Shown here: positions 3,872-36,761 of the stretch, one piece after another
Layout: each line of letters begins with the position of its first letter
How positions within the stretch are numbered: the first letter of the stretch is position 1
Origin: Eubacteriales bacterium
GTDB lineage: Bacteria > Bacillota > Clostridia > Saccharofermentanales > DTU023
DNA: 39,254 nt
Assembly (NCBI GenBank): GCA_030537595.1
Contig: JAUNVR010000015.1
Coordinates: forward strand, 1 to 39,254
Direction: 5' to 3'
Notes under the pieces: generated by a model
Told to the model about the DNA's origin: nothing
Seen by the model: the letters and a program-made list of their open reading frames with translations, nothing else
Database searches by the model: none
Translations under genes and position numbers: made by a program

Positions 3872-3970
3872 TAGTGTTAATACTTAGATTGAGAAATTAG
3901 ACTGGAGATAGCAGCTATTATTAAAGAACTAGAAGCACGAAAAGCTAAGTAAAAATGATAGGAGTATAAA

Positions 3971-6379
3971 ATGCAAAGACTAATACCTTTTAATCGTGAG
4001 TGGTGGTATAAGGAAAACTTTCTTCCGACTGACAAAGAGTGTAGCGCTGATACTACCGCCTTTGCAGAGGTTGAGCTACCACATACTAATAAAATTTTGC
4101 CTTACAACTGCTTAGATGAGCAAAGCTATCAATTTGTTAGCTGCTATAAGAAAATCTTTCATCTAGATAATTTCGATGCAGATAAAATCTATCGCTTAGA
4201 ATTTGAGGGTGCGATGATTGCGTCTGAAATCTTTCTCAATGGCTCCCAGATAGGGCAGCACAAGGGAGGGTATACTCCATTTACTGTTGAGCTAAATCCA
4301 GCACTCAAAGAGGGAGAGAACATCTTAGTAGTAAAACTTGATTCTACTGAAAGAGCAGATATTCCACCCTTTGGTGGGGTTGTTGATTATCTGGCCTATG
4401 GAGGAATTTATCGTGAGGTAAATTTGCGAGTTTTGGATTCCGTCCATATAGAGCGGCTCTTCTTGGATTGCCCTGAGCCTTTGGCTGAGAGTAAAAAGTT
4501 GAATTGCAGAGCTGAGATAAGTGCTAAAGAAGAGCAAAAAGCCAAAGCTCAGCTCAGCCTCTTTGATGCAAGTGAGCAGCTCCTTGCTGAAAAGGAATTT
4601 GATTTACTTTTAGAAGCTGGTGAGAATCTAATCAATTTAAGCTTAGATGATTTACGCGGGCTTGAACTTTGGTCAATTGATGATCCAGTCTTGTATCGGC
4701 TTGAGCTAAAACTTGAGACTTCTGAGCTAGAAGATCTTTTGAGTGATCGCTTTGGCTTTAGAAAAGCTGAGTTTAAGGCTGATGGTTTTTATCTAAATGG
4801 TGACTTGCTTAAATTGCTTGGCCTGAATCGTCATCAATCGTGGCCTTATGTTGGCTATGCGATGCCGCGCCGTGTTCAGCGAAAAGATGCTGAGATTATA
4901 AAGCAGGATTTAGGCTGTAATATCGTACGTACTAGTCACTACCCCCAGTCTAAACATTTCCTGGACGCCTGCGATGAATTGGGGCTTTTGGTCCTCGAGG
5001 AGATGCCGGGTTGGCAGTTTATTGGTGACCAAGAATGGCAGGATCAGGCATTGGAAGACATTCGGAAAATGATTACTCGGGATTATAATCGTCCCTCTAT
5101 CATCCTATGGGGTGTCCGCATCAATGAATCTCAGGACAATCATGAATTTTACAGCCGGACTAATGCTCTTTCGAGGCAAATTGATCCGACTCGACAAACA
5201 GGTGGAATCCGTTACTGGAATGGTAGTGAGCTCCTAGAGGATGTATATACCTATAACGACTTTAGCCATAGTGGCGGTGAGTTAGTTTTTAGACCTCAGC
5301 AGGAGAGTACCGGTCTAGACTATCTGGTGCCAACTCTGGTTACTGAGAGCAATGGACACATGTTCCCGACTAAATCCTTCGACCATGAATATCGAGTTGT
5401 GGAGCATGCGATGCGCCATCTTAGAGTCATCAACGAGGCGAAGGCTAGAACGGACTTAGCTGGTGGGATTAGTTGGTGTGCCTTTGACTACAATACTCAC
5501 GGTTGTTTCGGTTCGGGTGATAAAATTTGCTATCACGGTGTTTGTGATATGTTTAGAAATCCCAAATATGCGGCATTTGCTTATGCTAGCCAGAGAGCTC
5601 CCGAAAATGCTGTGATGCTCGAAGTAATAACCCGAGGCTGCCGTGGTGAATTTGATGGTGGCGGGACGGTTCCATTCACTGTCCTGACAAATTGTGATTT
5701 CATTAGGGTTCATAAGAACGGTAGTTTAGTTGGTGATTTTTATCCGGATCATTCTGAATTCAAGAGTTTAGACCATCCACCAATTATAGTAAAGCATCTG
5801 ATTGAGGCTGATTCGGACTTTGGTATGTCAGAAGAGGATGCTAAGGAGTTTAGAGATTTTCTTAGGGAAAAAGTAAGTCAGGGTACTTTATCTACAGCTG
5901 AACAGAGCGATTTAGAATATATAGCGCAAATGGCGGAGCGCTACAGCTTGACCACTAAGCAGCTATTCCGAATGGCTGTTCGGGCTGCAGGAGGCTGGGG
6001 GGATATTGAAAATGACCTATTAATTCAGGGCTTTATCGGCACGGAACTTGTAATTGAGCGAAGGATTGGCGAGGCGAAGTACTTTGAAGCTTTAGTTTTA
6101 GAAGCTGATGATGCTGTGCTCCAAGCAGATGGTCCTAGTTATGATGCAAGCCGGGTTAAAATAACAGCTATCGACAATATGGGCAATCCCTTAGCCTATA
6201 TTCAAGATTGTGTTGAGCTTGAAATTGAAGGGCCGGGTAGGATTCTCGGGCCTAAGACTTTCCCTTTATTAGCAGGAACATCTGCATTCTGGATTGCCAC
6301 GACCGGTGAAAAAGGGACGATTAAGATTCGAGTCAAGGGGATGCACGGAGAGGCAAGAACGGAGATTAAAGTGGAGTAA
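3971..6379 (+). CDS. Glycoside hydrolase family 2 (beta-galactosidase/beta-glucuronidase type)
   Basis: An 802-aa GH2 enzyme that should remove a beta-linked sugar from the non-reducing end of a glycoside. In order: a jelly-roll sugar-binding domain (about 1-160, with GGYTPFTVEL), an immunoglobulin-like domain (about 165-270), the TIM barrel (about 275-560) and extra C-terminal beta domains. The barrel shows NRHQSWPYVGYAMP, the acid/base Glu386 in INESQDN and the nucleophile Glu459 in VTESNGH. No signal peptide is seen, so it acts in the cytoplasm on imported glycosides. AGGAG at 3960-3964 precedes the ATG. The neighbouring AraC regulator probably controls it. Galactosidase, glucuronidase and mannosidase activities cannot be told apart by eye. 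Confidence 0.9.
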   Translation: MQRLIPFNREWWYKENFLPTDKECSADTTAFAEVELPHTNKILPYNCLDEQSYQFVSCYKKIFHLDNFDADKIYRLEFEGAMIASEIFLNGSQIGQHKGGYTPFTVELNPALKEGENILVVKLDSTERADIPPFGGVVDYLAYGGIYREVNLRVLDSVHIERLFLDCPEPLAESKKLNCRAEISAKEEQKAKAQLSLFDASEQLLAEKEFDLLLEAGENLINLSLDDLRGLELWSIDDPVLYRLELKLETSELEDLLSDRFGFRKAEFKADGFYLNGDLLKLLGLNRHQSWPYVGYAMPRRVQRKDAEIIKQDLGCNIVRTSHYPQSKHFLDACDELGLLVLEEMPGWQFIGDQEWQDQALEDIRKMITRDYNRPSIILWGVRINESQDNHEFYSRTNALSRQIDPTRQTGGIRYWNGSELLEDVYTYNDFSHSGGELVFRPQQESTGLDYLVPTLVTESNGHMFPTKSFDHEYRVVEHAMRHLRVINEAKARTDLAGGISWCAFDYNTHGCFGSGDKICYHGVCDMFRNPKYAAFAYASQRAPENAVMLEVITRGCRGEFDGGGTVPFTVLTNCDFIRVHKNGSLVGDFYPDHSEFKSLDHPPIIVKHLIEADSDFGMSEEDAKEFRDFLREKVSQGTLSTAEQSDLEYIAQMAERYSLTTKQLFRMAVRAAGGWGDIENDLLIQGFIGTELVIERRIGEAKYFEALVLEADDAVLQADGPSYDASRVKITAIDNMGNPLAYIQDCVELEIEGPGRILGPKTFPLLAGTSAFWIATTGEKGTIKIRVKGMHGEARTEIKVE

Positions 6380-6405
6380 GTGGATCCTTTGTCCTGGACT
6401 ATACT

Positions 6406-6534
6406 TAGAGGGTAGGCAGAAAATATGGTTAAGTGTTAGAATAAAATCAATTATTGCTTAACCAGGACTACTCCTACCCGACACACTGAGCCTGGTTAAA
6501 GGGAGTGCAGTAAATACACTGTACTCCCTTTTTT
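6406..6534 (+). ncRNA. Candidate structured RNA or long folded 3' UTR
   Basis: The gap after the GH2 gene holds two nested stems. The outer one is GGGTAGG (6410-6416) with CCTACCC (6473-6479); the inner one is TGGTTAAG (6426-6433) with CTTAACCA (6457-6464). A competing nine-pair helix joins TTAACCAGG (6458-6466) to CCTGGTTAA (6491-6499). The segment ends in a strong terminator. A possible -10 (TATACT, 6400-6405) lies just before, without a good -35. It may be a small RNA or only the 3' UTR of the glycosidase. I do not recognise a known RNA family. Confidence 0.35.
6499..6534 (+). terminator. Intrinsic terminator
   Basis: A 13-pair stem (6499-6511 with 6518-6530, one G-U pair) with a six-base loop is followed by a run of six T ending at 6534. 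It ends transcription from the GH2 gene or from the candidate RNA, and insulates the pyrophosphatase promoter that follows. Confidence 0.9.
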
Positions 6535-6556
6535 ACGTGCGATTTGTATATTTGAC

Positions 6557-6586
6557 TTGGCTTATATTAGCTTATGATTGTATAAT
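6557..6586 (+). promoter_or_regulatory. Promoter of the membrane pyrophosphatase gene
   Basis: TTGGCT (6557-6562) and a perfect TATAAT (6581-6586) are separated by 18 bases. The predicted transcript starts near 6593, about 30 bases before ATG 6623. It follows immediately after the terminator at 6534. Confidence 0.6.
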
Positions 6587-6622
6587 GTAGATAATATAGG
6601 AATTACGTACTGGAGGTCTAAC

Positions 6623-8683
6623 ATGAACTTGCCCCTGTATTTCGTTTTGGCCGGAGGTGTACTATCTCTGTTTTTCGCCTTGGCCAAAACCCGCTGGATT
6701 TTTAAACGTGAAGTCACTGACGAGGTCTTAAAAAAGACCGGAGGCTATATCTCTGATGGTGCTATGGCCTTTATGCGACGAGAGTTTACCGTGCTAACGC
6801 CTTTTGTTTTAGTAGTAGCAGCGCTATTGGCAATCGCAAATAGCGGGCCGCTGAGAATGCAAGGCCCGGCTTTTATTTTAGGTGCCTTAGCTTCGGCTGG
6901 TGCCGGTTATATCGGGATGAAGGTTGCAACTGCAGCGAACTCTAGAACTGCTCAAGCTGCTCATGATTCGGGTCTGAATGATGCACTGAAGGTTGCTTTT
7001 GCCGGTGGTTCCGTAATGGGTATGAGCGTGGTTGGATTAGCTCTGGTTGGACTCTTTATTGTCTTTATTGTCGGTCTTAGACTTTACGGTTTAGACGAAG
7101 AGACCTTAGGTTCCATTATTTTGCCCTTGGGTACGGCTTTTTCACTTGGTGCCTCATCGATTGCTTTATTCTCAAGAGTCGGTGGTGGTATTTATACCAA
7201 GGCTGCTGACGTTGCTGCAGACTTAGTGGGTAAGGTAGAAGCAGGTATTCCTGAGGATGACCCGAGAAACCCTGCCACAATCGCCGATAACGTTGGTGAT
7301 AACGTCGGTGACGTTGCCGGGATGGGGGCTGACTTATTTGAGTCCTTTGTCGGTTCAATTGTCGGTTCAATGATTCTTGGCTTGACTGTAGAGGCAGACT
7401 TTGATCAGCGCTTAAAACTCGTTGTCCTGCCTTTATTAATTGCTTCTTTTGGTGTCTTAGCATCAATTATCGGTACTTTCTTTGTCAAAACAAAGGAAGG
7501 TTCAGATCCGCAGAAAGCTCTAAATCTAGGAACATTTACAGCTTCTGGAATTGCCACCCTGTCGACCTTCTTAATCATGCATTTCTGGTTGGGTGAGCTG
7601 AGCTTTAATGGCATTGGCAAGTATCATTTACTAGGTTCAACAGTTACTGGTCTGGTTGCCGGTATCATCATTGGCCAAATTACAGAGTACTATACAGGTA
7701 CTGATCGCAAGCCTGTTGTCGCAATCTTAAAGTCCTGTGAAACTGGGCCTGCTACAACCATTATCAGCGGTGTCGGTGTCGGTATGATGTCGACTTTCCC
7801 AACTGTCATTATCATTGCAATTGCTGTCTTTACCAGTTTCAGCTTAGCTGGGTTATATGGTGTCGGTATTGCGGCAATCGGTATGCTCGTGACTCTTGGT
7901 ATCCAGCTTGCGGTTGATGCTTACGGTCCAATCGCAGATAACGCTGGTGGCTTGTCCGAGATGGCCAGTTTCCCACACGAAGTTAGAGAGATTACAGACA
8001 GTCTGGATGCTGTCGGAAATACCACAGCAGCTATCGGTAAAGGCTTTGCAATTGGTTCTGCAGCCTTAACAGCGATTATCCTCTTTGCTTCATTTAATGA
8101 CCTTTCAGGACTGGGCGAAGTTAGTGTGACCAATACCAGTGTTTTGGTTGGTATTCTGGTCGGTTCAGTTATTCCTTTCTTATTCTCATCATTAGCGATG
8201 TCAGCAGTTGGTACTGCGGCCTTTGAGATGATTAATGAGGTACGTCGCCAATTCCGTGAAAAACCCGGGATTTTAACTGGTGAGGAAACTCCTGACTATG
8301 CTCGTTGTGTTGACATTTCAACTCGCTCGGCTTTGAAAGAGATGATGGTACCTGGTTTAGTTGCCATTCTCAGTCCTGTATTAGTTGGCTTCCTGGGTGG
8401 TCGTGAGATGTTAATCGGCCTCTTGGTTGGTGTCACAATCAGCGGTGTCGCTCTAGCAATCTTTATGTCTAACGCTGGTGGTGCCTGGGACAATGCGAAG
8501 AAAATGGCTGAAGCAGATGAGCGTACAGGTAAGCAGTCAGAAGCTTATAAAGCTGCAGTTGTAGGTGATACAGTAGGTGACCCCTTTAAGGATACTGCAG
8601 GACCTGCACTGAATATCTTGATTAAAATTATGTCCATGGTGGCCTTAGTTATCGCCCCCATGTTGAAAGCATTTGGAGGATAA
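6623..8683 (+). CDS. hppA: K+-dependent membrane-bound pyrophosphatase (ion pump)
   Basis: An integral membrane enzyme of 686 aa with about 16 membrane helices that hydrolyses PPi and pumps Na+ and/or H+ out of the cytoplasm. The PPi-binding motifs are intact: [35 protein letters not shown] and, near the C-terminus, [15 protein letters not shown]. In [11 protein letters not shown] (from residue 465) Ala469 occupies the position where K+-independent pumps have Lys, so this belongs to the K+-dependent class, which includes Na+ pumps. I place the start at ATG 6623 behind GGAGG (6612-6616). A start at 6578 would lie inside the -10 box. The next gene is translationally coupled. A soluble pyrophosphatase lies at 13479-14084. 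The pumped ion cannot be decided from these motifs alone. Confidence 0.95.
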
Positions 8684-21655: not shown

Positions 21656-23251
21656 ATGCCAGAACAGCAGAGCCGTAAGACGCAGTTTCACTTTGGCGGA
21701 CGGGCATCGGGGGTCTTATGCCATATCAGCTCCTTGCCTTCCCCCTATGGCATTGGTAGTTTCGGGCAGGCTGCGCGAGATTTCGTAGATTTCTTGCATG
21801 CAGCAGGGCAGAGAGTTTGGCAAATTTTGCCCCTCGGGACAACTGGTTTCGGCGATTCGCCTTACCAGAACTTTTCGATGCATGCAGGAAACCCCTATTT
21901 TATCGATTTAGATAATTTAGTGGAATTAGATTTGCTGGAAGCTGAGGCTCCTGGCCAATTAGATTTTGGTCAGGATCCGAAGGCTGTAGATTACGGCCAA
22001 TTATGGGAGAACCGTCGCACCATTCTGACCTGGGCATGGGAGCGCTTTAAATTCACTCAACCGCGAGAGTTATTAAAGGAATTTCTGAGCTTTCAGGAGG
22101 ACTCTTTAACCTGGCTCAATGATTACAGCTTGTTCATGGCGATTAAAGAAGAGCAAGGTGGGAAGAGTTGGTCAGAATGGCCCCGTGATTTAAAGTTCAG
22201 GGAGCAAGACGTCATCCTCGATTTTCAGAAAGAGCATAGTGATAAGATCGAGTTTTATGCTTTTGTGCAGTTTTTATTTTTCCGCCAATGGAAGGAATTA
22301 AAAGATTACGCAGAAGAAAAGGGCGTATTGATTATGGGTGATATCCCAATCTATATCGCTGCAGACTCGGTCGAGACCTGGAAAGAGCCAGAGTTATTCC
22401 TCCTAGACGAGAACTTGAGCCCCTCATTTGTGGCCGGTTGTCCCCCAGACTTCTTCTCCGAGGACGGTCAATTATGGGGTAACCCTCTTTACGATTGGGA
22501 TAAGATGGCAGAAAGTGATTATAGTTGGTGGGTCGAGAGAATCCGTTTCTCCCTCTCGATTTACGATTTAATTAGAATCGACCACTTCCGTGGCTTCGAG
22601 TCCTTTTGGGCGGTGCCTTTTGGCGACCTTACAGCGCGTCGTGGGACCTATATGCTGGGCCCGGGATCTGCTCTGTTTGAACGCCTGATCGAGGTTTTAG
22701 GCCCCCTGCCTCTGGTCGTCGAGGATCTAGGTGTCTTAACAGATGCTGTGCACGAGCTGCGAGATGAGTTTGACCTACCCGGAATGAAAGTGATGCAATT
22801 TGCTTTCTGGCCAGGAGCAGATTCGGAGTACTTACCCCATCACATGATTCAAAACTGTGTGGCTTATCTTGGCTCACATGATAACGATACGCTGAAGGCT
22901 TGGTTGGAGCAGATTTCAGAGCCTGAGCTAGACTTTATTCGGCGTTATCTGGGCTTGGGTCCAGAGCGTGATTTAGCCCGGGAGCTTTTGCGGACCTTAC
23001 AAATTTCTGTGGCCGATTTGGCAATTATGCAAATGCAGGATCTATTAGCCTTAGGCAATGAGGCTAGGATGAACTGGCCGGGAGAAGCTACAGGAAACTG
23101 GCGTTGGCGCTTTTTAGCCTCAGATTTAACTGCAGAATTAGCCAAGGAATTTAAGGATTTAGCTACTTTAGCGGGACGTTGGTCAGATCAGAAAGCTGAA
23201 GTTAATACAGAGGAGAGTTCTGATCATGAATTAGATCTGGAGCTCACTTAG
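21656..23251 (+). CDS. malQ: 4-alpha-glucanotransferase (amylomaltase, GH77)
   Basis: A 531-aa cytoplasmic enzyme that transfers alpha-1,4-glucan segments between maltodextrins. GH77 features are GVLCHISSLPSPYGIGSFG near the N-terminus, WQILPLGTTGFGDSPYQNFS, the nucleophile Asp in IRIDHFRGFESFW, the acid/base Glu in VVEDLGVLT and the third Asp in LGSHDNDTLKAW. I prefer ATG 21656 (GGAG at 21644-21647) over ATG 21626, which sits three bases after the previous stop with no good site and would add ten residues. The C-terminus (about 20 acidic residues) runs past the end of the converging ABC gene: the two coding regions overlap by 21 bp on opposite strands. No phosphorylase or maltose transporter is adjacent. 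Confidence 0.95.
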   Translation: MPEQQSRKTQFHFGGRASGVLCHISSLPSPYGIGSFGQAARDFVDFLHAAGQRVWQILPLGTTGFGDSPYQNFSMHAGNPYFIDLDNLVELDLLEAEAPGQLDFGQDPKAVDYGQLWENRRTILTWAWERFKFTQPRELLKEFLSFQEDSLTWLNDYSLFMAIKEEQGGKSWSEWPRDLKFREQDVILDFQKEHSDKIEFYAFVQFLFFRQWKELKDYAEEKGVLIMGDIPIYIAADSVETWKEPELFLLDENLSPSFVAGCPPDFFSEDGQLWGNPLYDWDKMAESDYSWWVERIRFSLSIYDLIRIDHFRGFESFWAVPFGDLTARRGTYMLGPGSALFERLIEVLGPLPLVVEDLGVLTDAVHELRDEFDLPGMKVMQFAFWPGADSEYLPHHMIQNCVAYLGSHDNDTLKAWLEQISEPELDFIRRYLGLGPERDLARELLRTLQISVADLAIMQMQDLLALGNEARMNWPGEATGNWRWRFLASDLTAELAKEFKDLATLAGRWSDQKAEVNTEESSDHELDLELT

Positions 23252-25690
23252 TTTTAGCAGTTCTTTTCCTAGCTCGCTTTCTGCGCTAGTAAAGAAATCT
23301 ATTTTCTCCTGCTCTTCAATAATCTGCCCTTGGCTTAGGACGGCGATTCGATCAGCCAGTTTAGCCAAAACTAAGGGTTCATGAGAGACGAAGAGACAGG
23401 AGAATTTTAATTCTGATTTTAAGTCCAAAATTAAATCCAAGATCTGTTCTCTGCTTTCGGGGTCGAGGGCAGAGACCGCCTCATCAGCGAGGAGGATTCT
23501 AGGGCGGGTGATGCAGGCAGCAGCTATTGCTACACGTTGGCGCTGTCCGCCAGAGAGCTCTGCAGGTAAACGCTGATGTAATTGTTCTTGGATGCCTACT
23601 TTAAGGAGTAAATCTCTTGCTTCGGCAAGAATTTCCGCATCTGTTAGTTGATGTAGTGAGCTCAAAGCGTAAAGCGGAGCCGCGACATTACTGAGTAGGC
23701 TATGGCTAGGATGTAGCGAGCTGTATGGATTCTGATAGATCATCTGAAGGCCAAGCTTACGTCTTTCAAGCTTTTTAATTGCCTGCTTACTTAATTCAAT
23801 AGCTGACTTAGTATTCGGATAAAAGCAGAGCTCACCACTACTTGGTAGGACTTCACCTGTAATTACTCTGAGTAGGGAAGACTTACCAGAACCGGACTCG
23901 CCGAGCACGCCGAGAATACTATTAGCCTTTAGGCTCAAATTAATCCCACGTAAAGCATCAACCCTGCGCTTCTCATCAGCGTAGTGTAACCACAGATCCT
24001 TAATTTCTAAGGTTTTAATTTCTGAAATCTGGCGCTCTTCCTCGCTTGGCTGAGCTGGGCTCTTTATTTCTGCGCTTAAATACTGACTTACGGCACTGTG
24101 GGGGTAGGGGCTGAGTTTACCATTATCTAATTTTAGAATCCGCTCAGAAATTTTTGCTAGAGCTCTTAAATCGTGTGAGATGAAAATCATGCTCAGTCCG
24201 GTTTCTTTTTGTCTTGCTTTTAGAAGCTCTAGAATATTATTCTCCAAGGCCAAATCTAAGGCTGTCGTTGGTTCGTCTGCCAGGAGCAGCTTGGGTCGGT
24301 TGATTAAGGCGAGGGCAATTAATGCACGCTGGCGCATGCCTCCGGAAAGCTGATGTGGGAACTTATGATAAACAGCAGCAGGATTCAGACCACAGGCCTT
24401 TAGTTCTGCTTCGACTAAAGCTCTGCGGGCTTTTCGACTAAGCTCCGGGCGTTTTAACTTTAGGCCCACAGCCAGCTGACTACCAATTCTTTTCAGCGGA
24501 TTCAAAGCCGTCAAAGAGTCCTGAAAAACATGGGCGATTTCAGTTCCTAATAGTTTCCTACGTGCCTTCGTGTCACTTGCTGCATAAGTCTTTCCAGCAA
24601 AGCAAATCATGCCGTCTGTATACTTGCAATGCCGCGGAGCGAGGCCTGAAATTGAAAGTGCGGTGAGACTTTTGCCACTGCCTGATTCACCTAAAATACC
24701 TAAGCATTCCCCCGGATTAAGATCAAAGGATAGCTGATTTAGGATTGGGCGCTTTTGGCCGGGGAAATAAAGGGTAAGCTGATTTACGCTAAGCAGGGCT
24801 TCCTCTGATTTGCATGGATTTGGATCGACGTAATTTAGCTCTTCACTCGAAGCTAGTTTACTCGGCGCTACTTCTCCTTCGAGATTACGGTATAGCTCGC
24901 TTAGCCCGGAGAAGAGCAAATAAAAGCCTAGGCCGGTGATGGTGATAGCCAGGCCAGGGAGTAGGGCCAAGCGGGGTAGCGAGAAAATATAGCTCTGGGC
25001 ATCTTTCAGTAGACTACCCCAAGATGGCATAGCTGGTGGCAGACCTAAGCCGAGATAAGACAGCGCAGCCTCGGCTAACATCGCATTGATTAAACCGATA
25101 CTCAAAGCGGAGAGGAGAGGTGCCTTTAAAAAAGGCATAAGTTCTCTCGTGATCAGGAAATAATCACTGGCCCCTAATAGTTCCAGGCGTTTGACAAAGA
25201 GCTTTTCTTTGACCTGCATTACAGTTGCGCCGAGAACTCTGGCAAAGCTTGGCACAAAGGCGAGACCGAGCGCTAAAACTAGCTCGGTTAAACTGTTGCC
25301 AAACACCGCAGTTGCGACAAGGGCTAAGAGGACTGCCGGAAAGGCTAGGAGAATATCGTTTAAAGCTTGGCAAAGGCGGGCTAAAAAGCCGCTAAAATAA
25401 TTGTTCCCGAGCGCCAGTAAAAGCCCGAAAAAGGCTCCGAAGGCGACGATTAAAAGGGCCGCAGTGATTGAATTTAAGCCGGCTAATAAGAGTCTTGCTC
25501 CATAATCTCGGCTCAGCATATCAGTTCCAAAGATATGCTCTCGCGAAGGTCTTGCAAGCTTACCAACTGCTTGAAGAGTGGTGGGGCTATGCCCTTTGAG
25601 TAGAATTACAATGGCCAAAATTGCCAGCAGTGTGAAAATTACGGCAGCAATCCGTAGACGCCAGCTAGCCTGCTTATTTCTCTTAATCAT
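23231..25690 (-). CDS. Fused ABC importer subunit: permease plus two ATPases (DppC-DppD-DppF type)
   Basis: An 819-aa fusion of three subunits of an oligopeptide/dipeptide/nickel-type ABC importer. Residues 1-270 are a DppC-like permease: first helix about 12-31, FGTDMLSRDYGARLL, and the EAA loop LELLGASDYFLITRELMP. ATPase 1 (about 297-540) has Walker A GESGSGKS (334-341), signature LSGGMRQR (448-455) and Walker B LLLADEPTTALD. ATPase 2 (about 557-800) has Walker A at 597-604, LSGGQRQR (712-719) and LLADEAVSALD. All catalytic motifs look intact, so one chain gives both nucleotide-binding domains. It starts in an 8-bp overlap with the DppB-like gene. Two-way fusions are known; this three-way form is less common. 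Peptides are the most likely substrate, nickel is possible. Confidence 0.93.
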   Translation of the reverse strand: MIKRNKQASWRLRIAAVIFTLLAILAIVILLKGHSPTTLQAVGKLARPSREHIFGTDMLSRDYGARLLLAGLNSITAALLIVAFGAFFGLLLALGNNYFSGFLARLCQALNDILLAFPAVLLALVATAVFGNSLTELVLALGLAFVPSFARVLGATVMQVKEKLFVKRLELLGASDYFLITRELMPFLKAPLLSALSIGLINAMLAEAALSYLGLGLPPAMPSWGSLLKDAQSYIFSLPRLALLPGLAITITGLGFYLLFSGLSELYRNLEGEVAPSKLASSEELNYVDPNPCKSEEALLSVNQLTLYFPGQKRPILNQLSFDLNPGECLGILGESGSGKSLTALSISGLAPRHCKYTDGMICFAGKTYAASDTKARRKLLGTEIAHVFQDSLTALNPLKRIGSQLAVGLKLKRPELSRKARRALVEAELKACGLNPAAVYHKFPHQLSGGMRQRALIALALINRPKLLLADEPTTALDLALENNILELLKARQKETGLSMIFISHDLRALAKISERILKLDNGKLSPYPHSAVSQYLSAEIKSPAQPSEEERQISEIKTLEIKDLWLHYADEKRRVDALRGINLSLKANSILGVLGESGSGKSSLLRVITGEVLPSSGELCFYPNTKSAIELSKQAIKKLERRKLGLQMIYQNPYSSLHPSHSLLSNVAAPLYALSSLHQLTDAEILAEARDLLLKVGIQEQLHQRLPAELSGGQRQRVAIAAACITRPRILLADEAVSALDPESREQILDLILDLKSELKFSCLFVSHEPLVLAKLADRIAVLSQGQIIEEQEKIDFFTSAESELGKELLKLSELQI

Positions 25691-29347: not shown

Positions 29348-30346
29348 TTAACGGCCAATAGTTGCTACCATTACAGCCTTAATTGTATGCATGCGATTTT
29401 CAGCTTCAACAAAGACCTTGGAGTGTTTGGAGCGGAAGATCTCATCTGTAACTTCCATTTCACTGATCCCAAATTCTTCGTGAACACTGCGGCCAATACT
29501 AGTTTCTAAATCATGGAAGGCGGGTAAGCAGTGGAGGAAGATGCAGTTCGGATTATTGCTTAGATCAAACATCTCACGATTGACCTGGTAGGGCTTTAGC
29601 TGCTCAATGCGCTCGGCAAACTTATCTTCTTCACCCATTGAAACCCAGACGTCCGTATAGATAACATCTGCATCCTTAACTGCTTCAGCGACTGTATCAC
29701 TGAGTTCAATCTTTGCCCCGGTCTCTTTAGCAACTTCCTTCATTTCGGCTACTAGTGCCTCATCAGGCCAGAGTTCCTTAGGTGCTAAGGCAACAAAGTG
29801 GAGGCCTAATTTTGCAGAACCAATTAAGAGGGAATTACCCATATTATTTCTTGCGTCACCAGCGTAGACCAGCTTGACTTCGTTCAGTGGTTTATTGACC
29901 TCTTCTTGGATAGTCATCATGTCTGCTAAAATTTGGGTCGGATGGTAAAGGTCGGTTAAACCATTCCAGACTGGGACTCCTGAGTGTTCTGCTAAAATCT
30001 CTACAGTTTCTTGTGCAAAGCCGCGGAACTCAATCCCATCAAACATTCTCCCTAGAACCTTAGCGGTATCCTCTAGAGACTCCTTTTTGCCCATCTGTGA
30101 ATCCTTTGCGCCGAGGAAAACAACACCTGCTCCTTCGTCCATAGCTCCGACTTCAAAGGCGCAGCGAGTTCTGGTCGAGGTTTTCTCGAAGAGCAGGACG
30201 ATGTTTTTGCCGGCCAGTAAATCCCCTTTAATGCCGGCGCGCTTCTTGGCCTTCAGATCCTTGGCCAAATCGAGTAAGTAGTGGATTTCTTCTGGGGTAA
30301 AATCTTTTAAACTAAGAAAGTTTCTGCCCTTTAAATTTACTGCCAT
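29348..30346 (-). CDS. arcB: Ornithine carbamoyltransferase
   Basis: A 332-aa enzyme. In the arginine deiminase pathway it splits citrulline with phosphate into ornithine and carbamoyl phosphate. Motifs: carbamoyl-phosphate site [14 protein letters not shown] (about 54-67), [12 protein letters not shown] (about 135-146), and the ornithine-binding Cys motif [10 protein letters not shown] near residue 270. The length fits catabolic OTCases. AAAGGAG precedes ATG 30346. It lies 50 bases after arcA on the same strand, which argues for the catabolic role and the name arcB rather than argF. No carbamate kinase follows; the next sequence is the gpmA terminator. Confidence 0.95.
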
Positions 30347-30396
30347 TGTCTTTGTCTCCTTTATTTGGACTCTGTTGTGGATTTGCTCGAAAGCAC

Positions 30397-31614
30397 TTAG
30401 ATGCCTCTACATAGGGGCATGGACATACAACGGGGACCGCCGCGACCCCGTGAAATTTCTGAGGAGGGGATAACGTGAAGCTTGACCCCATGCTTGTCAA
30501 ATAATTCATTGGTGATTCGATTTCGGTCGTAGACGATAATCTCGTTCGGTGCAATTGCTAAAGTATTAGAACCATCGTTCCACTGTTCGCGCTGGGCGTC
30601 CATCTTTGAATTACCACCACAGCGGATGACTCTAATACCATCGATTCCGGTGTAGTGTTCGAGAATTTCTTCCAGCTTGCCCCGCCGTTCACTCAGCTTA
30701 AACTCGCCTGCTTTGGCCGTGCGCTGGAAATCATAGACGACAAGACTTTCCTCAATTTCCGGATGCACCACAAAAAGGTCGCGGTCAATCTGTGTAAAGA
30801 CAGTGTCTAAATGCATGAAGGCTCTTTTGGCCGGGATTTCAAAGCCGAGAACGTGCTCGATGTTCTCACCATTAGTGAAGATCGACTGGGCTAATTGCTC
30901 AACGGCAGCTCTCGAGGTTCTTTCCGAGATGCCGACAGCCAGTGCTGTTGGGCATAATTGGATAATATCTCCGCCTTCTAAAAAGTCATCGTATTCGCGC
31001 TCATAGTAGTGTTGAATGTTTCTAAACCAGGGGTGTTCCTCGAAAATTAACTTAGAGAAGAGAGTTTCGCGCCTACGGGCAGTCGAATACATCTTGTGGA
31101 TTGAGACCCCCTGGCCGATAATCGTGAATGGGTCGCGGGTGAAGTAAAGGTTAGGCAGAGGATCTAAGATTAAGGGATAGTCAAGGCCGCGATGCTCAGC
31201 ATAGAGTTGGGCTCTTGCACCATTTACTTCCTCTTTGCGGAGGCCGCAAATTAGGCGCTGGACTAAAGCTTCAGGCTCTAGCCGGGAAAGCTCCGCTCCT
31301 AAGTCTTCGATTTGCTGTTCATTAAGCGCTGACTCGTAGAGAAACTCCCGGATAAAGACTTCCCGGATACCGCGATCACGCAAACATTCGACGACAAAAT
31401 CTTCGAGGAAGAAAACCTCTGTGCCATTTTGCTTAAACACATCAATGAAGGCATCGTATTCCCGACCTGCTGCAATGGCGTCGGGAATATCATCAAAGAG
31501 TAAGCTTTGCATGATTTGGGGAGTTAGGTTTTCTAGCTCCAGACCAGGTTTGTGCAGTAAAACTGCATTCAGTTTATCAATCTCGGAATAGACATGTAAT
31601 TTAGCCTTGGACAT
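30397..31614 (-). CDS. arcA: Arginine deiminase
   Basis: A 405-aa cytoplasmic enzyme that hydrolyses arginine to citrulline and ammonia, the first step of the ATP-yielding arginine deiminase pathway. Motifs: [36 protein letters not shown] and the catalytic Cys396 in [10 protein letters not shown] at the C-terminus. The start is ATG 31614, with AAGGAGG just upstream; a longer frame to 31656 would run through that ribosome site. The order arcA-arcB is normal. arcC (carbamate kinase) and arcD (arginine/ornithine exchanger) are absent here and must lie elsewhere if the pathway is complete. Ammonia released also protects against acid. Confidence 0.96.
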
Positions 31615-31760
31615 CAAAGCCTCCTTCGCTAATGCTGTCAAAGAGAAATTCGACATTGCTCTGCATAAGCTATACTATTTTTATCCAAGTTCAGCTTAAC
31701 AAGAAGTCGGAAAGCTTGCAAGATAAGGCTTTGCGCAAATCTGACCTAGGCTGAAGATGC

Positions 31761-31929: not shown

Positions 31930-32547
31930 TTAGGGGACAATATAGCCCTTGGAGACAGCGAAAATAGCCAACTGCGCAATTGAGTCGTAGTTGGTCTTCA
32001 TCAGTATCCGATTGATATTATTTCTAATCGTATTTTCGGAAAGGAAAAGAGCCTCGGCAATTTCCTTACGGTTTTTGCCTTGGCAAACTAGGCGTAAAAT
32101 ATCGTTTTCACGATCGGTTAAGTCAAAACGATCTTGTTGGCTGCCATCTCGATCTTCAGGGAAGGAGGAGTAATCTAAGACTGTATTGTTAATCGTGCTG
32201 ATGAGCTCTTCTTTACTCACGTTCTTGTAGACAAAGGAATCAGCTCCGGCATTTTTACCCTCGCTGACAAAACTTTGATCCGGCATGCCAGTCATCAGGA
32301 GTACTTTAATTGTCGGTAAAGCCTCTTTAATTTTTCTAGTTTCACTAAATCCGGTGTTGCCATCAGCAGAGCAAATGTCCATCAGCACTAAGTCGGGGTT
32401 AAGAGAGCGGCACAAATCTAGAGTCTCTGAGGCATCAGTAGTTTTCCCGACAATTGTAAAGTTGTCGACTAAGCTCAGGGATTCTGCTAGAGCATCTAAG
32501 AGTATGGTTTGATCTTCGACTATTAGAATGCGCACTTTCTTTGCCAC
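31930..32547 (-). CDS. NarL/LuxR-type response regulator
   Basis: A 205-aa two-component response regulator. The receiver domain (1-125) has the acidic pair Glu11-Asp12, the phosphorylation site Asp57 in LVLMDICS, Thr in LLMTGMPD and Lys in FVYKNVSKEEL. The C-terminal helix-turn-helix (about 143-205) shows LTDRENDILRLVCQGKNRKE and LFLSENTIRNNINRILMK, the LuxR/NarL DNA-binding pattern. It starts with GTG 32547, GAGGTGA upstream. It is transcribed away from the two sensor genes, and its natural partner is the HisKA_3-type kinase at 35340-36761. Targets are unknown; the arc operon next to it is a candidate. Confidence 0.93.
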   Translation of the reverse strand: MAKKVRILIVEDQTILLDALAESLSLVDNFTIVGKTTDASETLDLCRSLNPDLVLMDICSADGNTGFSETRKIKEALPTIKVLLMTGMPDQSFVSEGKNAGADSFVYKNVSKEELISTINNTVLDYSSFPEDRDGSQQDRFDLTDRENDILRLVCQGKNRKEIAEALFLSENTIRNNINRILMKTNYDSIAQLAIFAVSKGYIVP

Positions 32548-32573
32548 TAAAGTTCACCTCTGCTGACTGCTAA

Positions 32574-32603
32574 TTGAAAGTAGGTAGTCTTTGCGTTTAA
32601 TAT
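32574..32603 (+). promoter_or_regulatory. Candidate promoter of the sensor genes
   Basis: TTGAAA (32574-32579) and TAATAT (32598-32603) are 18 bases apart in the short divergent region between the response regulator and the sensor genes. The 91-bp gap leaves room for a shared operator. Confidence 0.4.
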
Positions 32604-32638
32604 AGCAGTATTATAACAAAAGTTCGAGGCGTGTGATA

Positions 32639-35347
32639 ATGAGAAGACTTCGTGGAGAACCCTATCGGCGAATACTTGCATTCAGTATTTTGCTCCTACT
32701 TGCTGTCCAAATCCTGTTTTTAGCTGGAGGCAGTTCAGTTCAGGCGGCGCAGATAAAACAATTGAGTATAGTCCTGACTGATGGCCCTGATTCGCCTCTG
32801 GCTGAGTTTTTTGGTGAAATTTTCCCTGAAGCTGAGATTACTTATCAGTTGACCAAGGATGAGTTGGATGTTCATCAGCATCCTGCTCTAATTTTAATGC
32901 CTGAACACCAGGCCTACCCACTTTTAGAGCAAGGTATTGGGAGTGGTTTTCTACCTTTATTTAGAGCTTCGCTGATTTATGGTGAAAAGGAAAGTGGAGC
33001 GCTCAATCAAACTGCCTTTGAACAGAGTGCTAAGTCATGGGAAGACCTACTGAGTGAGGATCGCTCAATTGCGGCAATCGTGCCTCAGCGTTATTTAATC
33101 TCAGCACTTCATGAAAAGCTAGATGAGGCCAAGGCTAAAAAACTAATTGATCGATTAGGAGAGCTTTATGCTGCCAATTATTACGAGATCTATGATTCTC
33201 AGGAAACTGGAACTTATCGACCGCATACTGAAATAGCTAAAGCTGAAAACTTACCTGATTTAATCCTGGCCTGGGATTACCATATAGTACAGACCAATGA
33301 GCAATTAAAGGCGGAAAAGAGAGATTTCCATTATCGCTTAGCAGTGCCGCAAGAAGGCTCAATGTTTGTCGATTATGGCTTCTTTGCAACAGACCGCAAC
33401 GCCTACAACCTACTAGAGCAGCGCCTGGGCAGCAGAGCCTCAGAAAATGGGCGAGAAGAGTTGCTGGCATTGGGCTACAGATTGCCTGATGGGGCCAGCG
33501 CAGAGCGCTTTGCCTATCCAGCCCAAGAAGACTACTACACAATCTCGCGGATTAAAAACTATTACACCTTTAATGAAAGTGAAATGTCTGATCTGGCAGA
33601 GTTTCGTAGAGGAATCTTAGCTTATTCGCCCCTCACACCTGCAAGCATAGAGGGTGAGTTCTTGTCCTACCTGCTCTTAACCATAGTTTTCATGATCTGG
33701 ATGGTCTTTTTATTCTACCGTCTTGATGAGCCGCGAATCAGGTTGCCACTACGCTTGTATCTTGGTGCCTTGGCAATGTGGATCTTAGTTAGGATGGGCG
33801 AGTTACTGCTACCCCAAAAGAACAGAATTTATGCTTGGTACACCTATGTTCCGGTCTTTTTGGTTGCAGCAGCCTGGCTCTTTTTGGCCTGGCGTCAAGT
33901 CACGCGGCGCAGAGTAGAAACAAAGCGCTTAAAGATAATGCTCTATAGCTTTGTCGTCCTCTTACCAGCAGCTTTAATTTTGGCTTTAAGCAATCGCTAC
34001 CATCACTTGATTTTTAATTTCGAGATAGAGTCATCGGCCTATGAAGCTTATGGAATCAAACCACTGATTCATTTGAAGGCAGGACCCTTGCTCTATCCAT
34101 TAGTGCTGCTTTTGTGCTTGAATTTCATTCTCGGATATTACTTTTTATATCTGGCGCGGGAGCAGAAGACAAAGTGGTATTTAACCTACAGTCCCCTAGT
34201 CTTAATCTGTGTCAGTTTCCTTTATAATGCATTTTTCTTATTGCAGAAATTAAATGTTGAGGGCAGTGCCTTCACTAGAAATAATGCGATTTTAGCGGCC
34301 CTATTATTAGAGCTAACGATTCAGGTCAAATTCTTGCCGGTCAATACTAAGTATTTCCGCTTCTTCCGTTATAATCCGCTCAGCATGAGATTGATTTCAA
34401 GTAGCCTCGATGATGTTTATGCTCCGGATGATTTGGAAGATTTAAGCCGGAGTGAAAAAACTAGTTTGCGCCGCCTGATTCATCAGGAATTTGATCAAGA
34501 GGAAAAACGCGTCTCAAGATTTGGCTTACGGAAGGTTAATCGCCCTCGTAAAATTTCCGACAAGGTGGCAAAGCTGGAGCTGGATTCTGAAGATAAGATT
34601 CTTTCCTTAAAGGAAATCCACGGTGGCTATCTACTCTGGCTTGAGGATGTTTCGGATTTACATATCTTGCGTAGTCGACTAACCGATTTGAGTGAACGAT
34701 TGGAACAGCAGCAGAACATTCTTCGTCAGGAGCAAAATGTGCAAATGCAATTGGCCTCGCAAAAAATTCGCCGCGAGCTCTTCGGTGCGCTTGAAAAACA
34801 GCTTTCTGAAAAAATGGAAGAAATCGCTGCGGAGATCAAACTCTTGAAAGACTATGAAGCCAAGGGTGAAAAGGAGCGGATTAAACCAACCTTAGCTCGG
34901 CTTAGAATGCTAGTCTCCCAAGCCAAAAGGAAGAGCAATCTACTCGTCAGACAGGAGCCTAGCCTGGAATTAGATGAGCTCAGACTAATCTTTAAAGAGG
35001 CGCTGCAGGATGCAGAAAGCGCAGGTATTACAGGTATTGTCCTAGTCCAGGGAGAGGGGCGCCTAGATACAGAAAAGGCTATTTTCTTCTACGACTATGT
35101 GCAGGAACTTCTACAAAATAATGCAGATTTGGAACGCCTGTCAGTCTTTATGATGCTTGCAAAGAGCAAGGAGAAAGTGCAGCTTCGCTTGATCCTAAAT
35201 GCTGATCAGCCACTAGAGCCGGATCGCTACAACTTAAAAGCTGATTTACAGCAACGCTTTGAGCAAATAGGAGCTAGTATTGAAGTTTCAAGTGAGGATC
35301 AGGACTTGCGTCTGCAGCTTGAGATAAAGGAGGAGCCAAATGCTTAG
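32639..35347 (+). CDS. 7TM sensor protein with binding-protein-like domain, degenerate histidine kinase
   Basis: A 902-aa membrane sensor. A signal/anchor segment (about 13-33) precedes an extracytoplasmic domain to about 325, which resembles a solute-binding protein (SWEDLLSEDRSIAAIVPQRY, later FHYRLAVPQEGSMFVDYGFF). Seven membrane helices follow (about 335-565), as in the 7TM histidine-kinase N-terminal region, then a PAS-like piece and coiled coil. The kinase part looks dead: where HisKA_3 kinases have ELHD, here is RELFGALEKQL with Phe715 in place of the phospho-His, and the ATPase N-box reads YVQELLQNNADLERL with no clear G-box. I chose ATG 32639 (GAGG nine bases upstream) over GTG 32633. 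It overlaps the next gene by 8 bp and probably acts as its sensory partner. Confidence 0.75.
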   Translation: MRRLRGEPYRRILAFSILLLLAVQILFLAGGSSVQAAQIKQLSIVLTDGPDSPLAEFFGEIFPEAEITYQLTKDELDVHQHPALILMPEHQAYPLLEQGIGSGFLPLFRASLIYGEKESGALNQTAFEQSAKSWEDLLSEDRSIAAIVPQRYLISALHEKLDEAKAKKLIDRLGELYAANYYEIYDSQETGTYRPHTEIAKAENLPDLILAWDYHIVQTNEQLKAEKRDFHYRLAVPQEGSMFVDYGFFATDRNAYNLLEQRLGSRASENGREELLALGYRLPDGASAERFAYPAQEDYYTISRIKNYYTFNESEMSDLAEFRRGILAYSPLTPASIEGEFLSYLLLTIVFMIWMVFLFYRLDEPRIRLPLRLYLGALAMWILVRMGELLLPQKNRIYAWYTYVPVFLVAAAWLFLAWRQVTRRRVETKRLKIMLYSFVVLLPAALILALSNRYHHLIFNFEIESSAYEAYGIKPLIHLKAGPLLYPLVLLLCLNFILGYYFLYLAREQKTKWYLTYSPLVLICVSFLYNAFFLLQKLNVEGSAFTRNNAILAALLLELTIQVKFLPVNTKYFRFFRYNPLSMRLISSSLDDVYAPDDLEDLSRSEKTSLRRLIHQEFDQEEKRVSRFGLRKVNRPRKISDKVAKLELDSEDKILSLKEIHGGYLLWLEDVSDLHILRSRLTDLSERLEQQQNILRQEQNVQMQLASQKIRRELFGALEKQLSEKMEEIAAEIKLLKDYEAKGEKERIKPTLARLRMLVSQAKRKSNLLVRQEPSLELDELRLIFKEALQDAESAGITGIVLVQGEGRLDTEKAIFFYDYVQELLQNNADLERLSVFMMLAKSKEKVQLRLILNADQPLEPDRYNLKADLQQRFEQIGASIEVSSEDQDLRLQLEIKEEPNA

Positions 35348-36761
35348 CTTATATCTTTTGGATCAGCCGGTCAGGATCTTCCTGCTGGTTTTAGTATATA
35401 TTGGAATCCTGGCTCAGTTGGGCTCAGTTATTTTTACTTGGTATCTACAAAAAGATCGGCGTAGAATTTGGCGGATTATCTTTGAGAGTTTTATTTTTCT
35501 GCACTTTTTCGTGCTCTGCCTTTCGCTCTCTGTAATCCAAGTCCAATCTTTAAGTGCTCAGTTAACCGCACCATATCTCGCGCTGCGCTTTGCCCTGATG
35601 ATCGCCCCATTAAGTGGAGTTCCTTTATTATTTGAGGAACGGCAAAACTCCGATGCCTTAGCGATGATCGCTTTAATCTTTACCCTGCCATTTATGGAGA
35701 ATATCTTTGGCAGCGAGTATTATTTGAGCTTGATTTTCTCGACCATGCTTTTATTACTAAGAGCTATTGCCCAGGTTTCGCAGCTGCGCGCTGAGCTCAA
35801 TACTAGCATTACGAGAGTTGCGATGAAGGAAGCCTTTGATAGCTTTCCTCAGCCTCTGGCAATCGGCTTGCAGGATGGCCGGATTGACTTGATGAATTCG
35901 GCTATGCGTAAGCTGATACTGGAGCTGGAGCTAGCGCCGAAGGATATTAAGGGCTTAGAAGAGCTGCTTCTAGCGAAGGCAGATTTACATGAGGGGCCAC
36001 CTAGAGTTTATGCTCTAAGTCACGGTGATTGCGTCTACCATGTGCAAGGGGAAAGCTTTGCGGCGCCGCATCGGAAGTACAGGATCTTAATCTTAAACGA
36101 TATTTCTGATGAGGCCGATTTAATTAACGAACTTAAATTAAAAAATAGCGAGTTAATTCACTCAAATGAGCAGATGGAAGCTATCTTAGCTCAGACTGAG
36201 GACATCATCATGGAGCGCGAGAAGACACGTTTACGTAATCGAATCCATGATGTCATGGGGCAAAGACTCTCGATTTTACATCTCTACATTCAGCAGATGG
36301 AAGAGGGCAAGGCGCCGCCCTTAACCGAGATTACAGAACTTTTAGATTCGATGCTGGAGGACTTGAGTAAGAGTGCAAATACCGAAGTCACTGCGACTGT
36401 GGATCAGATTCGGGATGCGGCACAACTAGTGGGCGTACAGTTTTCCTTTATTGGGAAGTTACCGACTGATCCTAAACGCGAGCGCTTGATTTTAAATATC
36501 ATGAGGGAAGCGGTGACCAACGCAATTCGCCACGCCCAGGCTAAAAACATCAAGGCTAGTTTGGTCGAGAAGACAGATGAATGCATACTCAGCATCAGTA
36601 ATGATGGCCGTCCTCCGCTCTTACCAATTTCTGAGGGCGACGGCCTAAAAGGCATGCGTTTTCAATTAGAGCAAATTGGTGGCAGTTTGGAACTGCCGCA
36701 CAAACTGCCTTTCGAATTAAGGGCAGTGATTCCTAAACTCGAAGCAGAGAGCGCAAAGTAA
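35340..36761 (+). CDS. Membrane sensor histidine kinase (HisKA_3 type)
   Basis: A 473-aa sensor kinase. About five membrane helices occupy residues 11-143, followed by a PAS-like region (about 160-260), a coiled coil and the HisKA_3 dimerisation domain with REKTRLRNRIHDVMGQRLS, phospho-acceptor His303. The ATPase domain has the N-box IMREAVTNAIRHAQA and the G-box GDGLKGMRFQLEQIGGSLEL, as in the NarX/DegS group that pairs with NarL-type regulators such as the one at 31930-32547. AAGGAGG within the end of the preceding gene precedes ATG 35340. The 8-bp overlap implies coupled translation and a fixed ratio of the two sensors. Its signal is unknown. Confidence 0.93.
   Translation: MLSLYLLDQPVRIFLLVLVYIGILAQLGSVIFTWYLQKDRRRIWRIIFESFIFLHFFVLCLSLSVIQVQSLSAQLTAPYLALRFALMIAPLSGVPLLFEERQNSDALAMIALIFTLPFMENIFGSEYYLSLIFSTMLLLLRAIAQVSQLRAELNTSITRVAMKEAFDSFPQPLAIGLQDGRIDLMNSAMRKLILELELAPKDIKGLEELLLAKADLHEGPPRVYALSHGDCVYHVQGESFAAPHRKYRILILNDISDEADLINELKLKNSELIHSNEQMEAILAQTEDIIMEREKTRLRNRIHDVMGQRLSILHLYIQQMEEGKAPPLTEITELLDSMLEDLSKSANTEVTATVDQIRDAAQLVGVQFSFIGKLPTDPKRERLILNIMREAVTNAIRHAQAKNIKASLVEKTDECILSISNDGRPPLLPISEGDGLKGMRFQLEQIGGSLELPHKLPFELRAVIPKLEAESAK

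Follow-up and report, generated by a model that had tools for sequence, protein, structure and literature searches.

The stretch of DNA analyzed here, called the window below, comprises 39,254 nucleotides from a bacterium of the order Eubacteriales, and carries on its forward strand two overlapping genes whose products, P1 and P2, both resemble sensor histidine kinases. P1 is predicted to join an extracellular binding-protein domain and a seven-transmembrane (7TM) domain to a kinase-like end devoid of catalytic residues, which P2 retains. The interpretation favored in the present work, and which we hold to be reasonably probable, is that P1 and P2 form a single sensor whose two subunits are encoded separately, an obligate split receptor kinase. 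It builds on the domain make-up of the two proteins, the loss of catalytic residues in P1 and their retention in P2, the obligate pairing of the genes, the existence of P2 proteins that lack a membrane part, and the co-divergence of the partners; physical contact, ligand binding, the direction of control, phosphotransfer and evolutionary origin are what we infer from them.

A proposed pseudokinase receptor and its catalytic partner

The P1 open reading frame spans 32633-35347 (+ strand) and opens at a GTG codon (904 amino acids, aa). The ATG at 32639 (902 aa) is preferred as the start, because a GAGG lies 9 nucleotides (nt) before it, compared to 3 nt before the GTG. Residues of P1 are numbered here from the GTG at 32633, such that Phe715, counted from the ATG, is Phe717 in this numbering. 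The features of the pair are as follows, with their basis in brackets.

32639-35347, + strand: P1, predicted binding-protein/7TM/pseudo-histidine-kinase receptor subunit (open reading frame and start-site reading)
32639-32749, + strand: P1 signal peptide or N-terminal hydrophobic segment (hydropathy segment 14-32; AQA-A cleavage-like site)
32750-33628, + strand: P1 predicted extracellular ABC-type solute-binding-protein domain, residues 40-332 (model fold, family profile, SBP_bac_6 in 5 of 21 relatives)
33641-34342, + strand: P1 seven-transmembrane domain, probably of HisKA_7TM type, residues 337-570 (HisKA_7TM in relatives; N454/H457; hydropathy)
34346-34648, + strand: P1 PAS-like linker (weak hhalign match to the P2 PAS domain, probability 73%; beta strands in the model)
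34652-34948, + strand: P1 pseudo-DHp domain, with Phe717 (34781-34783) in place of the phospho-His, and family motif K765-R766 at 34925-34930 (alignment, family counts, model helices 674-744 and 747-772)
34961-35329, + strand: P1 pseudo-CA (ATPase-like) domain without usable N-, G1- and G2-boxes (alignment; Foldseek to DesK)
35326-35333, + strand: Shine-Dalgarno sequence of P2, AAAGGAGG, within the P1 gene, six bases ahead of the P2 start (sequence)
35340-35347, + strand: 8-bp overlap of the P1 and P2 genes, ATGCTTAG (sequence)
35340-36761, + strand: P2, predicted active HisKA_3-type histidine kinase, 473 aa (Pfam and NCBIfam matches, invariant catalytic residues)
35340-35804, + strand: P2 membrane region, about five transmembrane (TM) helices, no detectable kinship to the 7TM domain of P1 (model, hydropathy, hhalign)
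35814-36101, + strand: P2 PAS domain (model; Pfam PAS in 3 of 19 relatives)
36246-36263, + strand: P2 His303 with the DxxxQ motif, HDVMGQ (His303 in 116 of 116 readable homologues)
36507-36653, + strand: P2 N-box (E390-N394), G1 (421-423) and G2 (433-438) (family conservation)

Taken by itself, the P1 protein of the window yields nothing convincing in a single-sequence Pfam search, and a phmmer search against PDB came back empty. Among 21 relatives, however, the HisKA_7TM model (PF16927), not matched by the window copy, is found in 16 at E<0.1 (best 2.2e-11) and SBP_bac_6 in five, and the family profile retrieves the Campylobacter periplasmic binding protein 5t1p (E 1.6e-8). The predicted structure (predicted local distance difference test score, pLDDT, 78.7) exhibits a two-lobed fold at residues 40-332, which VIA-align superposes on 5t1p (Z 19.1), SpuD (18.9) and AfuA (18.4), as well as on PotF and FbpA/ferric-binding proteins, with Z between 17.7 and 19.1 and 253-286 residues aligned in the 50 best rows. 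Profile and modeled fold thus confirm the binding-protein character proposed in the preliminary description, namely a two-lobed ABC-type solute-binding-protein fold, for which the binding of a solute is itself predicted. An attempt to read the class of ligand from the fold was rejected: with rows within 1 Z unit counted as tied, polyamine, sugar, hexose-phosphate and iron binders rank equally. The hydropathy profile of P1 exhibits the signal segment and seven further hydrophobic segments.

Foldseek aligns the C-terminal part of P1 with DesK and other kinases (E about 3e-6), indicating a DHp-CA fold; this part is homologous to the kinase part of P2 in a profile-profile alignment (hhalign probability 93.5%, E 2e-7), in which Phe717 falls on His303 of P2. 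The earlier placement of a phenylalanine at the phospho-site was therefore correct. The window protein retains an N-box-like 'ELLQNNAD', absent from its closest orthologues, and the G1 and G2 boxes are missing; P1 thus has neither a phospho-acceptor His nor an N/G1/G2 ATP site. The same holds for the family at large. Among 122 non-identical P1 proteins the phospho-site residue is Tyr in 89, Met in 8, Phe in 6, His in 6 and other residues in 13, such that the His is lost in 116; the N-box ExxxNxx[KRQ][HYF] appears in none of the 122 compared to 104 of 122 P2 proteins. The six His-bearing members sit in two places of the tree, and all lack the ATP-binding boxes. The ATPase boxes described earlier as degenerate consequently provide no usable ATP site in any of these homologues, and the possibility that P1 is an active kinase with an unrecognized His or ATP site is ruled out by the alignment, hhalign and the family statistics. 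Constraint in P1 lies elsewhere: K765 and R766 are present in 120 of the 122, E789 in 119, and N454 and H457 are invariant in the first 21 relatives. Since these near-invariant residues lie outside catalysis, their conservation indicates that P1 is a maintained pseudokinase and not a decaying gene.

In P2, matches to HATPase_c (3.9e-4) and HisKA_3 (6.5e-3) are both under the Pfam cut-offs; NCBIfam matches are UhpB/NarQ-like, and HATPase_c is found in 18 of 19 relatives. The predicted structure (pLDDT 80.8) comprises about five membrane helices followed by PAS, DHp and CA domains. The His, the DxxxQ phosphatase motif, the N-box, NDG (G1) and GDGLKG (G2) are all present, as expected of a HisKA_3 or NarL-type kinase, and the key residues are invariant where readable (His303 116/116, N394 114/114, G435 112/112). 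The intact motifs reported for P2 in the preliminary description thus extend to its family, and P2 is predicted to be an active HisKA_3-type histidine kinase. The idea that its membrane region is a diverged copy of the P1 7TM domain found no support (hhalign 2%).

The 8-bp overlap suggests coupled translation of the two genes. It had also been taken to imply equal amounts of the two proteins, which is not supported, because P2 possesses a strong Shine-Dalgarno sequence of its own. A regulator gene, which was also considered part of the system, lies on the opposite strand:

31930-32547, - strand: NarL/LuxR-type response regulator, 205 aa, probable output (Pfam; identity to regulators of orthologous pairs)
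32548-32632, no strand: divergent intergenic region, 85 bp, presumed site of the promoter and regulator sites (sequence)

The regulator carries Response_reg (5.9e-18) and GerE (5.6e-14) domains in Pfam, with Glu11/Asp12 and Asp57 in the receiver and a GerE/LuxR DNA-binding domain, and is 60-64% identical to the regulators adjoining the three closest orthologous pairs. It is the probable output of the P1/P2 pair.

Distribution, obligate pairing and co-divergence

Homologues of P1 are present in 22 of 98 relatives. Strong matches (E below 1e-50) occur in about 26 of the 391 genomes sampled from the class, and matches at E<1e-20 in 12 of the 398 sampled from the phylum, several of these outside the class. 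A contig scan, performed with a four-row alignment, as a 20-row alignment was too diverse, revealed them in 167 stretches from a collection of named genomes, among them Ruminococcus bromii ATCC 27255, Coprococcus comes, Allobaculum mucilyticum, Mogibacterium kristiansenii and Pseudoflavonifractor phocaeensis. The carriers of the pair are Firmicutes, mostly Clostridia, and many originate from guts; most of the genomes are draft or metagenome-assembled.

The flanks of 126 P1 homologues, a few of them identical copies, were examined. A P2 homologue follows directly downstream on the same strand in 122, with a 4-bp overlap in 81 of these paired loci, and the four homologues without a downstream P2 are broken copies or are located at, or close to, the end of a contig. 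Since the same arrangement with its partner is found at 121 or more further loci, a few of which are identical copies, its presence in the window is not due to chance. In the reverse direction, every strong match of the P2 profile in the 391 genomes (E up to 1e-58) is preceded by a P1-type gene or by the remnants of a broken one, and one further match (E 5e-49) begins at the edge of a contig. The tier below (E 1e-25 to 1e-32), examined at loci L218-L222, consists of other kinases. Three of these (L220-L222) consist of a single chain, with good matches to the P2 profile and weak ones to the 7TM and pseudokinase profiles; they are plausible candidates for the ancestral type. The pairing is obligate in both directions in the genomes sampled; orthologues without a partner, which would have spoken against the preliminary description, were found on neither side, and an orphan P1 or P2 placed next to the other by accident is ruled out by this two-way co-occurrence. 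The regulator accompanies 113 of the 126 loci, being divergent only in the window and four relatives. The binding-protein domain, detected in only 16 of the 126 P1 proteins, is not an essential part of the design.

Pairing is one of three lines of evidence that the two proteins act together, each of them indirect. The second is provided by thirteen P2 proteins of 316-368 aa without any hydrophobic segment, cytoplasmic PAS kinases most of which start in a 4-bp overlap with P1, where a membrane part would find no space; in these loci only P1 can carry a signal across the membrane. The third is co-divergence. In a mirror-tree comparison of 95 triads, distances between P1 pseudokinase domains track those between P2 kinases with r=0.913, compared to 0.842 for the 7TM domain of P1 itself, and P2 correlates with the regulator at 0.776. 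The ranges are 0.85-0.91 for P1-P2 and 0.71-0.79 for P1-regulator. The order of these values is the informative part, since co-inheritance alone gives a high r.

Several variants of the arrangement were also observed. The genome of the window harbors a second, paralogous triad (locus L032:4565-8170 on contig C24 of genome G000), with a P1 of 516 aa that lacks the binding-protein domain. In one P1 subclade (L088, L090, L092, L095 and L096; 716-779 aa) extra HisKA_7TM sequence is found at the N terminus, in two stretches in L090; these proteins keep the phospho-site His (NRLHDELH) and lack the ATP-binding boxes. At L101, a binding-protein and 7TM protein without a recognizable pseudokinase end (3903-6200) overlaps the gene for a 272-aa partner (6197-7015) with a weak match to the P2 profile, possibly a further reduced form of the pair. 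Matches at L171, L182 and L190 stem from bins labeled Bacteroidia, Myxococcales and Proteobacteria, which are probably contaminated, mis-binned or mislabeled; L171 is nearly identical to Coprococcus comes.

Proposed mechanism and competing explanations

As a split receptor kinase, the pair would operate as follows. P1 would serve as the receptor, its binding-protein domain taking a small solute outside the cell and its HisKA_7TM-like domain relaying the change through the membrane, while its catalytically dead DHp/CA region would pair with P2. As the catalytic subunit, P2 would bind ATP and phosphorylate its own His303, from which the phosphate would move to Asp57 of the divergent regulator; the DxxxQ motif suggests that P2 may also dephosphorylate the regulator. 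P1 would set the balance between the kinase and phosphatase activities of P2 via the paired DHp domains. The complex is most simply envisaged as a P1:P2 heterodimer, or a 2+2 assembly, held together through the DHp helices, and would likely have originated from a 7TM-PAS-HisKA_3 kinase of one chain, in which the functions of receptor and catalyst became separated. The preliminary description had likewise proposed a heteromeric receptor in which P1 senses and P2 phosphorylates; that proposal, in which contact and phosphotransfer are deduced indirectly, is strengthened by the membrane-less P2 proteins and by co-divergence. By a narrower balance of judgement, we favor the broader proposal that the pair represents an undescribed family of receptor kinases, widespread in Firmicutes and obligately made of two subunits: a 7TM pseudo-histidine-kinase receptor with exchangeable outside domains (none, a binding protein or a second 7TM) is joined by a HisKA_3 catalytic subunit, sometimes wholly cytoplasmic, and, in many loci, by a stand-alone pseudo-receiver as a fourth part.

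Several points weigh against a split receptor. The His at the phospho-site of six P1 proteins means that a dead DHp is not universal. The membrane-less P2 proteins are confined to one part of the tree and may represent one to three events rather than thirteen. Operon partners co-diverge without contact, and r=0.91 is on its own suggestive only. The P2 of the window has five TM helices and may sense by itself; moreover, its membrane region is not recognizably kin to the 7TM domain of P1, such that a simple duplication of one kinase is not apparent from the sequences. The complete set of catalytic motifs in P2, and the TM and PAS domains that most P2 proteins possess, lend some credit to the main rival, in which P2 senses and signals alone as a normal homodimer and a ligand-bound P1 docks onto it, perhaps via the membrane, as an accessory modulator that switches the kinase/phosphatase balance, in the manner of RocA on CovS or RetS on GacS. 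The pseudokinase RocA indeed acts through CovS (PMC7028121). Yet the two genes are never separated in the genomes sampled, a membrane part is absent from thirteen P2 proteins, and the P1 pseudokinase co-diverges more with P2 than with its own TM domain. An accessory P1 is therefore a serious but distinctly less probable alternative.

The remaining explanations carry much less weight. A reader of the DivL sort, whose pseudokinase end would bind the regulator and inform P2 of its state, the flow of information being from the regulator towards the kinase, has a precedent in a repurposed histidine kinase of Caulobacter (PMC4211667) and would suit the presence of the regulator in 113 of 126 loci; the large outside and membrane sensing domains of P1 are nevertheless unlike those of a purely cytoplasmic reader, and P1 co-diverges less with the regulator than with P2, which makes this role improbable. 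It is more doubtful still that P2 phosphorylates P1 in trans on the phospho-site Tyr or His, as part of a phosphorelay or as an alternative phospho-acceptor. The Tyr of 89 and His of 6 proteins would permit it, and for FasBC it has been proposed that the kinase of one subunit acts on the His of its partner (PMC12675982), yet the window has Phe at this position, and further members have Phe, Met, Leu, Trp or others, such that a phosphorylatable side chain is not conserved. Least credible of all is that P1 is a decaying, pseudogene-like relic retained by chance next to a functional kinase. Its catalytic residues are lost and its domains diverge fast (25-29% mean identity), but the frames are open in many families, P1 is lost from no complete pair, and the conservation of the non-catalytic residues listed above refutes the relic.

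Neighboring genes and comparison with known systems

A stand-alone receiver-like protein of about 127 aa, without a Pfam match, is encoded near 28 non-redundant triads. Its phospho-Asp is usually replaced by Glu, and the acidic pair and conserved Lys are lost. Examples are the following; about 25 other loci carry it besides.

L133:8304-8687: receiver-like protein
L114:8706-9092: receiver-like protein
L036:8561-8944 and 2817-3206: two receiver-like proteins
L159:7901-8317: receiver-like protein

Several loci of the binding-protein type have one such gene immediately ahead of P1 and a second one following the regulator; none adjoins the pair in the window. This pseudo-receiver is possibly a fourth component of the system. 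In the three closest orthologous loci, the kinase gene is followed on the same strand by a gene for 690-720 aa (L033:2009-4135, L034:10479-12548, L035:10865-13030); two of the products match a SpaA prealbumin-like fold and the third is of like size. A SpaA-domain surface protein is a possible target of the orthologous pairs. No match to such a surface gene was obtained in the genome of the window, in a search without a positive control, and no target gene is evident next to the pair there. Secreted leucine-rich-repeat-like surface proteins, BspA-like by eye, recur near 21 triads (e.g. L189:3291-5114). In the window, genes for arginine deiminase and ornithine carbamoyltransferase (29348-31656) adjoin the divergent regulator on its strand, and a link to arginine is possible. 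Further away, an 819-aa open reading frame (23231-25690) combines a permease domain (BPD_transp_1) with two ABC_tran domains next to permease and SBP_bac_5 genes, a predicted transporter of the oligopeptide type in which one chain unites three subunits.

Homodimers are the usual picture of sensor kinases, and pseudo-histidine-kinases are commonly regarded as rare accessories. DesK-type kinases are known as homodimers; DesK is matched by the C-terminal part of P1 in Foldseek, and P2 shares with the NarL-family HisKA_3 kinases the H-D-xxx-Q motif and the N-, G1- and G2-boxes. One survey found the His missing in 0.3% of Pfam-recognized HisKA_3 domains (56/16,025; PMC12632262). Such surveys would miss the P1 proteins, because the Pfam kinase models do not recognize them. 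If the pairs are true heteromers, many sensors of gut bacteria, Ruminococcus bromii and Coprococcus comes among them, would each combine a dead kinase with a live one and place sensing and catalysis on separate chains, and the natural pairs with a membrane-less kinase would make the direction of control directly testable.

No description of the P1/P2 family was found in the open-access literature on tandem or pseudo histidine kinases with 7TM domains in Clostridia; a subscription paper may exist. A binding-protein-like receptor acts upstream of a histidine kinase in XylFII-LytS; there and in HptA-HptS-HptR the binding protein is separate, and we know of no pseudokinase subunit in either. HptA-HptS-HptR of Staphylococcus aureus resembles the pair in its binding-protein-like receptor upstream of a histidine kinase (PMC6291074), whereas in P1 the binding protein is fused to the 7TM domain and the pseudokinase. 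RocA-CovS resembles it in that a membrane pseudokinase with a degenerate CA acts through an active kinase, yet RocA is an accessory of an otherwise ordinary CovR/S system in which CovS homodimerizes (PMC7028121), whereas the P1 and P2 genes overlap and are inseparable. GacS-RetS and DivL, as proposed for P1, are kinase-like and steer a kinase pathway in which they are not the phosphodonor (PMC12675982; PMC4211667); GacS and RetS can each also homodimerize (PMC12675982, discussion), and DivL is a repurposed kinase that reads a regulator (PMC4211667).

The nearest described case is FasB/FasC of group A Streptococcus. To our knowledge, Fas includes neither a binding-protein nor a HisKA_7TM domain. 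FasB/FasC/FasA comprises, like P1/P2, two adjacent sensor-kinase-like genes and a regulator, and two-hybrid analysis supports a FasB/FasC heterodimer and no homodimers, one partner being proposed as a pseudokinase (PMC12675982). As in FasBC, the adjacent kinase-like genes of P1 and P2 always occur together. The output differs, FasA binding a ComE-like site (PMC12675982) and the regulator of P1/P2 being of the NarL type. So does the division of labor: FasC, the proposed pseudokinase, keeps its phospho-acceptor His246, its own CA being dispensable and that of the partner serving instead (PMC12675982), whereas such a His is found in only six P1 proteins; P1 has lost both the His and the ATP site, and P2 keeps both.

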